In this document: in pieces, positions 3,500-34,780 of the stretch
How the letters are laid out: each line of letters starts with the position of its first letter
Position numbering within the stretch: the first letter of the stretch is position 1
Assembly (NCBI GenBank): GCA_029258925.1
Contig: JAPDJV010000046.1
Coordinates: 1 to 38,191, forward strand
Origin: Thermoproteota archaeon
Lineage (GTDB): Archaea; Thermoproteota; Thermoprotei_A; EX4484-217-1; JAPDJV01
Length of the DNA stretch: 38,191 nt
Direction: 5' to 3'
The notes under the pieces: model-generated
Seen by the model: only the letters and a program-made list of their open reading frames with translations
Told to the model about the DNA's origin: nothing
Database searches by the model: none
Position numbers and translations under genes: made by a program

Positions 3500-3534
3500 G
3501 CATGATTATGTACACAAGATTATGTGGATTAGAA

Positions 3535-3756
3535 ATGTCTACAACATTAAGTATTAGGATTAGAAGGGATTTGAAAGAGAAGATGAAGAAGATAAAAATT
3601 GATTGGAGAAGAGAAATAGAGAAGTTTATTGAGGAGAAAATCAAGGAGGTGGAGTTGAAGAAAATACTGAGCGAAATAGATAATGTTCTGAAGGAGATCC
3701 CGAAGTCTGAGAAACCAGCATGGTTAACTGTTAGAGAGTTCAGAGAGTCAAGGTAG
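3535..3756 (+). CDS. vapB: VapB-type antitoxin
   Basis: A 73-residue protein, MSTTLSIRIRRDLKEKMKKI at the N-terminus, which is the ribbon-helix-helix DNA-binding start (beta strand TLSIRI, then a basic helix). The rest is a charged helix ending in a WLTVREFRESR tail that would wrap around the toxin. The frame can be opened at ATG 3502, but that adds 11 residues (MIMYTRLCGLE) that do not belong to the RHH fold and overlap the TATA region, so ATG 3535 is preferred. The toxin gene starts 6 nt downstream of the stop. The pair should autoregulate its own promoter, as is usual for VapBC. Confidence 0.88.
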   Translation: MSTTLSIRIRRDLKEKMKKIKIDWRREIEKFIEEKIKEVELKKILSEIDNVLKEIPKSEKPAWLTVREFRESR

Positions 3757-3762
3757 TGTGAA

Positions 3763-4185
3763 TTGTACGTTGTTGACTCATCAATATTTTCAAGTATCAT
3801 TGTCAAAGACGAGTTCTACGATAGAGCATTGAACTTTCTAGTTGAAGCCAGAAGATCAGAGCTTGTAACACTGGACTTGGCAATAATTGAAACAGCAAAC
3901 ACTTTGTGGAAGCATGCGTGCATCTACAAAAGGATACCTGTAGAGAAATATAGGAAGCTGAAGCTGGCAGTAGAGAGCCTAGTGTCCAATAGCGTGTGGA
4001 GAGTATATGCTACGAGGGACTTAATAGTGGATGCTCTAAACAATGCTTTAAAGTACAGGATAACAGTGTACGATTCAGCATACATTACCCTAGCCTTAAA
4101 GAAGGGGTATAGAGTGGCCACGTTCGACAAGAAACTTGAAGAGAGACTGAGGGAACAGAATCTGGAAATCATTTATATGCCTTAA
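3763..4185 (+). CDS. vapC: VapC-type PIN-domain ribonuclease toxin
   Basis: A 140-residue PIN-domain protein. The acidic residues that bind Mg are in place: D5 in YVVDSSIF, a glutamate in IIETANTLWK, and two aspartates in TVYDSAYITLA and VATFDKKL. VapC toxins cut specific RNAs, often tRNA or rRNA, and are held in check by VapB. The start is TTG at 3763, 6 nt after the vapB stop; no ATG exists before D5. The catalytic set looks complete, so the toxin should be active. Confidence 0.9.
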   Translation: MYVVDSSIFSSIIVKDEFYDRALNFLVEARRSELVTLDLAIIETANTLWKHACIYKRIPVEKYRKLKLAVESLVSNSVWRVYATRDLIVDALNNALKYRITVYDSAYITLALKKGYRVATFDKKLEERLREQNLEIIYMP

Positions 4186-12859: not shown

Positions 12860-13471
12860 ATGGTGCTTCAGCCTGAGAAAAAGGCCCCTGACTTCGAAAT
12901 AGAAGCATACGATGCTGCGACCGGAGAAATAGTTAAAGTAAAGCTGGACGACTTCAAAGGGAAGTAGCTAGTACTCTGCTTCTACCCAGCAGATTTCACT
13001 TTCGTCTGCTCCACGGAGCTTGCTGCAATGAGCACTATAGCCGATACTTTGAAGGAGATGAACGTGGAGGTTATAACAATAAGCACTGACACTGTGTTCG
13101 ACCATAAGGGGTGGGTTGAGCAAGAGCCTCTTCTCAAGGGTAGAGTCAAGTTCTTAATGGGTGCTGATCCAACGGGCAAGGTTTCTAGAGCTTACGGCGT
13201 GTACAGCGAGGAGCAGGGAGTAGCTTTCAGAGGGAGATTCATCATAGATCCCGACGGCATCCTACAGGCATACGAAGTTGTCAACTTGAGTATGGGGAGA
13301 AGCATGGACGAGTTGATCAGACAAATTAAAGCATTACAGTACATGCGTGAACACCCGGACGAGGTTACGCCAGCCCAGTGGGAGCCGGGCAAGCCGACAA
13401 TAAAGCCTAGCATAAAAATCGCGGGTAAAGTGGGAGACCAGATACCCAAAGGCAGCTACTCCTACTGGTAA
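12860..13471 (+). pseudogene. AhpC-type peroxiredoxin interrupted by an in-frame TAG at codon 36
   Basis: From ATG 12860 the frame reads MVLQPEKKAPDFEIEAYDAA and on to LDDFKGK, then TAG (12965-12967), then LVLCFYPADFTFVCSTELAA without any frame change to TAA 13469-13471. The full product would be 203 residues, normal for AhpC. The position of the TAG is a conserved Trp or aromatic in relatives, so TGG to TAG is the simplest explanation. The peroxidatic Cys is C50 (FTFVCSTE; most relatives have FVCPTE). The resolving Cys of 2-Cys AhpC (GEVCPAKW in E. coli) is Thr here (DEVTPAQW). The next ATG (13028) lies after C50, so it cannot rescue activity. Everything else is intact, so the mutation is recent, a sequencing error, or read through. 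Confidence 0.88.
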
Positions 13472-32699: not shown

Positions 32700-32905
32700 T
32701 GTCCCTAGAGGATCATCCCTTGTATTTTAGGGTTGATTAGGGTCGCCTCTGGGGACTTCCACCTCGCCCATAACCCTACCAAAAGGGTTATGGGATCATG
32801 GGTAGCGGTCGAGGCTAACGGGACGAGCCTCCCATCTACGGGGCTAGACCCCACGGGGCTTGGAGCAGTGCTCCCATCACCCCGTAGGGCTTTAAAGAGG
32901 AGGTT
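32700..32905 (-). ncRNA. Candidate TnpB-associated guide RNA (omega/reRNA) region
   Basis: TnpB nucleases use an RNA made from the element's right end, which overlaps the 3' part of tnpB. Here the last 65 or so codons after the RuvC motif are not conserved-looking, and the DNA contains a perfect 11-bp hairpin (cccataaccct 32767-32777, agggttatggg 32784-32794, 6-nt loop). Near the end the minus strand reads ggtggaagtccccagaggcg, of the kind seen at right ends of archaeal TnpB elements. The guide would start at 32699 and run leftwards. Confidence 0.45.
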
Positions 32906-34138
32906 CCAGCAAGCAACCACGTCACGGTGCCATAGTTCTCCACCTTTACTGCATCTCCCAGCCCTAGAGCCATTACCATAGTTTATCGGAGCACTATGAA
33001 TTGGACACAGCCTAGATGTATTCCTAGGGTCAATGTAGATTACTGGTGCACCATACTCGCTAGCCTTCTCCTCTATAGCCTTCTGAATCCCCTTGAAGCT
33101 AGCCTGGAAGATCATGTGGCGTAGCTGCTTATCCCTTACCCTCCTGATCATGTTATTGGCAGGCTTCTTACCGAACTTCTCAAGGATAATAACATGTTGT
33201 CTCTCATAGGCAGTTTTAACGATTATGTTGGCTATATTCCATCTAATATCCTGCTTCTTCTTCCTCTCCTTAAGCTTCCTAATAGCCTTCCTTTTAGCCC
33301 TTGACTTCACACCATATAGTTTATCGTATTTCTCTTGAACCCTCTTCCTGCGATAGCAGTATCCGAAAACGAGTTTCTCCATACTGGTCTCGAAAAGGAA
33401 GGAGATACCATCAAGTAACATAGCAACATTATTCTCGTTGACATCAACAGGTAAGTAGCCCTTGGGCTTGTACTCTTCAATCTCTTTAACAAAAGTTAAG
33501 TAGATTATGAGGCGTCTACTCCTTTTATCGAGCTTTACCTTAGCTTCAGTAGTTAGCTTCCATCCACGATTAACATATTTCCAGTACTGCTTGTGTGATT
33601 CGAACTCTACTGTTATCCATCCCTTATGGGTTGCTACCATGATAGAAGTTAGCCCATTAGTCTTCCATAGATCGTCGTCGAGCCAAATACTAACCCTTCT
33701 AACACGCGGCTTGGTAACACCATCTTTCATCTCGTATTCAACCTGCTGTCTTGCAATTCTATATGCTACTTTATAGAGGTGGCTTCTCTCTTCTCTACCC
33801 AGCTCTTTAATACGGCATCCGAGATAGTCCTGTAGTTCATCAAGTACCTCCTCAGCCAGTTCACATATTTTGCTCTTGTAGAAGCTCCTAACTCTAGTAG
33901 CAACATCTTGACATACCGTGTATGCACAGTGGCTCGGTAGATGAGGGTACATGCTTCTCAATTCTCTATATTTCTGTGCCTTCAGCTTGGTGAAGCTCCT
34001 TATAACGTTCCTAGAGGCATAGAGCACGAGTTGTTCGAGCATATTCCTATACATTCCCTCAAGTTCGACAAAGACTCTAAACAGCTTTCTCGGCATCTTC
34101 ACGCTCTTCACTATAACAGTCCTAGCTACTCTAGCCAT
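32705..34138 (-). CDS. tnpB: TnpB RNA-guided nuclease, IS607-associated
   Basis: 477 residues from ATG 34138 (MARVARTVIVKSVKMP); TTG 34147 would add three. RuvC motif I is LPVDVNENNVAML (D near 230), motif II is VIILEKFGKKPANN (E near 317), and motif III is HRDVVACWNLL (D near 404). The zinc ribbon between II and III is RLCPIHSAPINYGNG and RCSKGGELWH. A usual ribbon has C-x2-C/H and C-x2-C; here the last pair is C-S-K-G, so one Cys has become Gly (GGT from TGT). TnpB cuts DNA opposite a guide RNA and favours retention of the element. The catalytic residues are complete and the frame is open, unlike tnpA. Confidence 0.92.
   Translation of the reverse strand: MARVARTVIVKSVKMPRKLFRVFVELEGMYRNMLEQLVLYASRNVIRSFTKLKAQKYRELRSMYPHLPSHCAYTVCQDVATRVRSFYKSKICELAEEVLDELQDYLGCRIKELGREERSHLYKVAYRIARQQVEYEMKDGVTKPRVRRVSIWLDDDLWKTNGLTSIMVATHKGWITVEFESHKQYWKYVNRGWKLTTEAKVKLDKRSRRLIIYLTFVKEIEEYKPKGYLPVDVNENNVAMLLDGISFLFETSMEKLVFGYCYRRKRVQEKYDKLYGVKSRAKRKAIRKLKERKKKQDIRWNIANIIVKTAYERQHVIILEKFGKKPANNMIRRVRDKQLRHMIFQASFKGIQKAIEEKASEYGAPVIYIDPRNTSRLCPIHSAPINYGNGSRAGRCSKGGELWHRDVVACWNLLFKALRGDGSTAPSPVGSSPVDGRLVPLASTATHDPITLLVGLWARWKSPEATLINPKIQGMIL
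32767..32794. repeat. Perfect 11-bp hairpin inside the 3' end of tnpB
   Basis: Arms cccataaccct and agggttatggg with loop accaaa. It is the strongest hairpin in the element and probably part of the guide-RNA scaffold. It also codes for part of the TnpB tail. Confidence 0.75.
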
Positions 34139-34780
34139 TCCCTTCAACCTCTTTTAGGAGCTTCCTGAAGCCTTGAACAAGCTTTTTCTTCTTATGGCTC
34201 CTCACATCGTAGAGCTTGCCAGCAAAGCTAGTAACGATAGCTAGTAAATCCTCAACTAGCTCCTGGTATGTATCCTTGGTTCTTCACCGTAGACGATCTC
34301 CATCCTTTCACCATACTATTTGAAGAAGTACTCAAGATAACCAAACCCAAATCTCGTAAGCCTATCCTTATATGTTACAACAACCACGTCTACCTCTCTA
34401 CTAACTACGTAGTTGAATAACTTAAGTAATTCTCTACGATTAGCCTTAAGACCACTAGCAACATCACTAAGAACATCAACCACCCCATATCCTTTAGCAG
34501 AACAATACTGAACTAGATGCTCTATTTGTCTCTCAAGGTCTTTCTTCCGATCTGAGGAGCTAACACGAGCATATATGACTGCTCTTACTTCTCTTTTCGT
34601 CTCTGGTTTAAGACCTAGAATTCGCTTAACCTTAGAATATGGAACCCTTATTCTACCACTAGGAGTTCTTACAACACTTATCTTCCCCTCGGCAACCCAT
34701 CGCTTAAAAGTTCTGTAACTAACACCAATAATGTTGTAGAACCCCCTGGGTTTCAGTAGTCTTTCATTATGATTATTCAT
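34131..34780 (-). pseudogene. tnpA: IS607-type serine recombinase TnpA, broken by a stop and a frameshift
   Basis: ATG 34780 opens a MerR-like helix-turn-helix (YNIIGVSYRTFKRWVAEGKI, then TPSGRIRVPYSKVKRILG) followed by the resolvase core with catalytic Ser in AVIYARVSSSDRKKDLERQI and the VVVTYKDRLTRFGFGYLEYF helix. It stops at TAG 34318-34316. After the stop the frame goes on as YGERMEIVYGEEP, shifts near 34270-34282, and continues KDTYQELVEDLLAIVTSFAG then KLYDVRSHKKKKLVQGFRKL to TAG 34133-34131. The intact protein would be about 216 residues. The element therefore cannot move with its own enzyme. Confidence 0.88.

Follow-up and report, generated by a model that had tools for sequence, protein, structure and literature searches.

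The window, the whole 38,191-nt stretch of DNA that was analysed, carries on its forward strand a reading frame for an AhpC-type peroxiredoxin (12860–13471, +; identified by reading of open frames and by profile matches) that is broken by one nonsense codon. The frame extends from the ATG at 12860 to the TAA at 13471 and comprises 204 codons with a single internal stop; with a residue at codon 36 the protein is 203 residues long. Codon 36 is an in-frame TAG (12965–12967, +), located 14 codons before the codon for the peroxidatic Cys50 (13007–13009, +). The peroxidatic motif P-x3-T/S-x2-C is present as PADFTFVC, with its Cys at codon 50, but lies beyond the stop. Cys40 (12977–12979, +), 10 residues N-terminal of the peroxidatic Cys, is kept in 81 of 93 aligned sequences. 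From established knowledge of peroxiredoxins, we take Arg124 in FRGRFIIDP (13229–13231, +) to be the probable active-site Arg. The C-terminal resolving Cys of typical 2-Cys enzymes is absent, and alignment places Thr170 (13367–13369, +) at the resolving-Cys position of 2-Cys AhpC (DEVTPAQW versus EVCPA-W).

There is no ATG, GTG or TTG from the TAG to Cys50. The next start is ATG 13028, past Cys50, and the longest downstream reading frame with its own start (13028–13471, +; 147 aa) does not include the peroxidatic Cys. Since the TAG interrupts 12860–13471 and no start rescues it, the region cannot be translated without a break through its catalytic Cys. The initial annotation, made from the sequence alone, had described a TAG 14 codons before the catalytic Cys of an otherwise intact peroxiredoxin and had stated that no internal start keeps this Cys; both statements are correct, the first in every detail.

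When the stop is read as W, the product matches PF00578 (AhpC-TSA) with 126 bits against a gathering score of 26, as well as PF08534 (Redoxin) and PF10417 (1-cysPrx_C), and it aligns over nearly its whole length to a solved bacterial AhpC, 1we0 (E = 1.3e-49). In a search of the genome with PF00578 the frame scores 123.8 bits even with the stop present. The profile matches, the catalytic motif, the Arg in FRGRFIIDP and the C-terminal 1-cysPrx_C segment are features of the AhpC/Prx1 group (PF00578 plus PF10417), from which this peroxiredoxin differs in the break at codon 36 and, like its archaeal relatives, in the replacement of the resolving Cys by Thr. The frame is thus more than a chance one, as it has one stop and otherwise specifies an intact and strongly constrained protein.

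The three closest relatives found are in archaeal metagenome-assembled genomes and are 86% (L032), 81% (L033) and 75% (L034) identical. All three genes are uninterrupted and have TGG where the lesion stands here, and the corresponding column of 92 aligned homologues contains W in 80, F in 10 and Y in 2. These patterns bear out the earlier suggestion of a TGG to TAG change at a conserved Trp, for which one G to A substitution would be the simplest path. In the comparison of the window with the relatives' sequences for conserved synteny, the peroxiredoxin itself was the sole match. The resolving-Cys column is Thr in L032–L034, Ala in two Caldisericales sequences (L035 and L036) and Cys in 72 of 93 aligned sequences. 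Judged from the alignment, the archaeal relatives and the two Caldisericales proteins, which are without the C-terminal resolving Cys and retain Cys40, probably constitute a 1-Cys-like AhpC clade.

A codon model was fitted to four genes, the interrupted peroxiredoxin and its three closest relatives. Based on this model, omega is 0.017 overall and, on the branch of the interrupted gene, 0.029 versus 0.015 elsewhere, which is not significantly faster; omega = 1 on this branch is rejected (2ΔlnL = 7.1). Synonymous sites are near saturation among the four genes, so these rate estimates are approximate. The best fit for a neutral tail on the branch is 0, with an upper bound of ~0.045 substitutions per site, and any loss of the peroxiredoxin is therefore recent. 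Outside codon 36, purifying selection on the gene is strong, and no second lesion accompanies the TAG. Three situations agree with the rates: the lesion may be so young that no further marks have gathered, it may not be real, or the gene may still be in use. An old pseudogene does not agree with them.

No frame in the assembly other than the interrupted one matches PF00578. The search for other intact peroxiredoxins that the initial annotation had proposed thus returned no further AhpC/TSA proteins in the genome. A superoxide reductase is present. As the single rubrerythrin-family match in the genome is a ferritin-like/VIT1 fusion and not a classical rubrerythrin, and as PF00210 ferritin was not found in the genome, H2O2 removal may be reduced. 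No peroxiredoxin match was obtained in any of three relatives from the same order, one of which is 99% complete. Given their lack of a match, the enzyme appears dispensable in this order-level group and its loss tolerable. The same relatives, together with the superoxide reductase, indicate that the earlier wording, in which the organism was losing its peroxide defence, was overstated.

On balance, we lean towards a very recent single nonsense substitution in the only AhpC-type peroxiredoxin gene, which has left a null allele. Under this explanation, a G to A change would have turned TGG into TAG in the archaeon's one gene of this type. Translation would halt after 35 residues and never reach the catalytic Cys. 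As Cys50 is not restored by any internal start, the allele would yield no active enzyme; we infer that the truncated product is inactive. The peroxiredoxin break would be one among several scattered single-nonsense genes of the genome. Of the points on which the explanation draws, the analysis shows the nonsense codon, the Trp codon that preceded it, the lack of further lesions, purifying selection in the past and the absence of TAG-specific recoding. Three considerations weigh against it: an error from base calling or strain mixture fits all of the facts equally well, strong constraint with a single lesion also fits a gene expressed by readthrough, and loss of the sole AhpC/TSA gene of a genome is costlier.

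In-frame stops are common in prokaryotes and persist mostly for short evolutionary times (PMC7918605). The polymorphic or recent nonsense alleles reported in that survey resemble the present case: a constrained gene contains a single in-frame stop that its relatives do not have and that is evidently short-lived. The survey differs in that it covers bacteria and stops common to at least two genomes, whereas the peroxiredoxin stop was seen once. Short-lived in-frame stops are thus already well documented in prokaryotes, and the peroxiredoxin is a case of a known kind. Provided that the cells do carry this base, the sequence records the loss of the sole AhpC-type peroxidase from an anaerobic archaeal lineage with order-level relatives that yielded no peroxiredoxin match.

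The strongest rival, which we regard as a serious possibility and still not the probable one, is that the TAG arose in the consensus sequence and not in the cells. The draft would have acquired the stop through a wrongly called base, through low coverage or through the merging of a base from a minority strain, and the gene would be intact in the living population. The assembly is a 56-contig draft, and in the sampled ~45% of the genome several unrelated metabolic genes with domains that otherwise look intact each have one isolated stop and nothing else. These genes encode EtfA (G000 C9:13640–14449; TGA), a glutamate synthase FMN-binding domain (C9:7936–9051; TAG), an ABC ATPase nearest to molybdate/tungstate transporters (C2:43141–44055, −; TGA), a class-V aminotransferase/cysteine desulfurase-like protein (C3:16800–18017, −; TGA) and a phosphomannomutase with the stop before domain IV (C4:773–2125, −; TAG). 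Counted by inspection under a uniform criterion, ~6 single-stop genes occur in 786 kb here and ~1 in the 690 kb sampled from three relatives, an excess that is suggestive but not significant. Most internal 'stops' in the comparison of the genome with relatives were antisense shadow frames and were set aside. Among genes covered by relatives there is only one candidate frameshift, in a transposase. Scarce frameshifts and a higher single-stop rate would both be compatible with occasional base errors in the consensus but do not prove them. The constraint on the peroxiredoxin, which seems intact up to the present, also agrees with an artefact.

There is, however, no direct sign of error at 12965–12967, and the other broken genes include transposon resolvases, which are plausibly real pseudogenes. 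One of them, an IS607 resolvase in the window (34316–34780, −), has a TAG at 34316–34318 and a frameshift just beyond; another (C1:114971–115522, −) is interrupted by TAA. A MazE-family antitoxin (C6:10520; TGA) is a probable further case. Where the parent residue can be worked out, it is Trp in the peroxiredoxin and the antitoxin and Gln in the two resolvases, and a G:C to A:T transition accounts for each of these stops. In the relative of EtfA the residue is Gln, from which TGA is not reached in a single step. We infer that the TAG base is real in cells; if it is an artefact, ~1% of the genes of the assembly have isolated false stops.

Two other features of the window were seen alongside these breaks. 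The window's resolvase belongs to an IS607/IS605-like element (32705–34780, −), in which it lies beside a TnpB-type reading frame (32705–34147) with a Cas12f1-like TNB domain. A TAG at 3754–3756 that might have been a second break rather separates two adjacent genes. These abut in the same frame (3502–4185, +) and by eye resemble a VapB/VapC antitoxin–toxin pair.

We consider it unlikely that the gene is still used through low basal readthrough of UAG by a near-cognate tRNA, which would give a reduced amount of full-length peroxiredoxin. Purifying selection without a second lesion is compatible with this, and it has been suggested that prokaryotes in general read through in-frame stops (PMC7918605). 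However, the stop is common to no relative and so carries no sign of conservation or selection. The RNA after the TAG is not unusually structured (z = −1.1), and a structured readthrough element 3′ of the stop was rejected on this basis.

Stop use in the genome also counts against readthrough. In 786 kb of genome stretches (~45% of the genome), 403 long reading frames end in TAG (120), TAA (164) or TGA (119), and TAG is thus a common normal stop. Coding continues in the same frame after 49 stops (TAG 19, TAA 15, TGA 15); the TAG share, 19 of 49 versus 120 of 403, reflects mostly neighbouring genes. Where the next start is at least 8 codons away, TGA accounts for 7 cases, TAG for 4 and TAA for 3. 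Genome-wide recoding of TAG was rejected, since any excess in these stretches is at most mild and can largely be put down to adjacent genes or operons. We judge it very improbable that UAG readthrough, regulated or basal, keeps the peroxiredoxin functional without pyrrolysine machinery and that the peroxide defence of this anaerobe is deliberately low. A new decoding mechanism has no support.

Decoding of UAG as pyrrolysine or by a dedicated suppressor tRNA is the least credible explanation and can practically be set aside, even though UAG is the pyrrolysine codon and, according to one account (PMC9499178), is recoded in some archaea. The initial annotation had proposed a search for pylS and for a tRNA with a CUA anticodon, and neither was recovered. 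The best PylS profile match in the genome reaches 28.8 bits against a cut-off of 178, a sub-threshold class-II synthetase cross-match that also appears in nearly all control genomes, and the PylD biosynthesis gene has no match in the genome. Rfam identifies 43 tRNA matches; none of the 41 readable tRNA genes and two 3′ fragments (ARAGORN and inspection by eye) has a CUA anticodon, in a set that is incomplete, with several expected isoacceptors missing. The case resembles the pyrrolysine proteins of methanogenic and some other archaea in having an in-frame UAG in an archaeal gene, but differs from them in these respects, in its ancestral Trp and in the interruption of other genes by TGA and TAA. 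As gene breaks in the sampled ~45% of the genome use all three stops, nothing singles out TAG. TAG-specific recoding is lacking, and the peroxiredoxin stop is no evidence for a recoded genetic code.

Among related peroxiredoxins, an in-frame TGA falls exactly at the peroxidatic Cys position in Desulfurobacteriaceae/Thermovibrio and Thermodesulfobacteriales metagenome-assembled genomes (L040:5406–5981; L041 and L044:6001–6576; L047:6001–6573). Based on this placement, these are probable selenocysteine peroxiredoxins.

The tRNA complement of the genome includes two tRNA-Arg(CCG)-like 3′ fragments (C10:38708–38774, −, and C10:40205–40277, −; L157 and L158). They extend from the anticodon arm to CCA, have a TATA-like box directly upstream and lie 1.3–2.8 kb from a complete tRNA-Arg(CCG); they may be either integration remnants or pieces of split tRNAs. 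At three other sites (C3:121673, −; C8:45098, +; C10:15719, −; L242, L245 and L246), the 5′ portion of a tRNA is present without a recognisable 3′ portion after it. At C10:15719 this portion continues into a recombinase-like reading frame, an arrangement that points to integrated elements or to split tRNAs at these sites.
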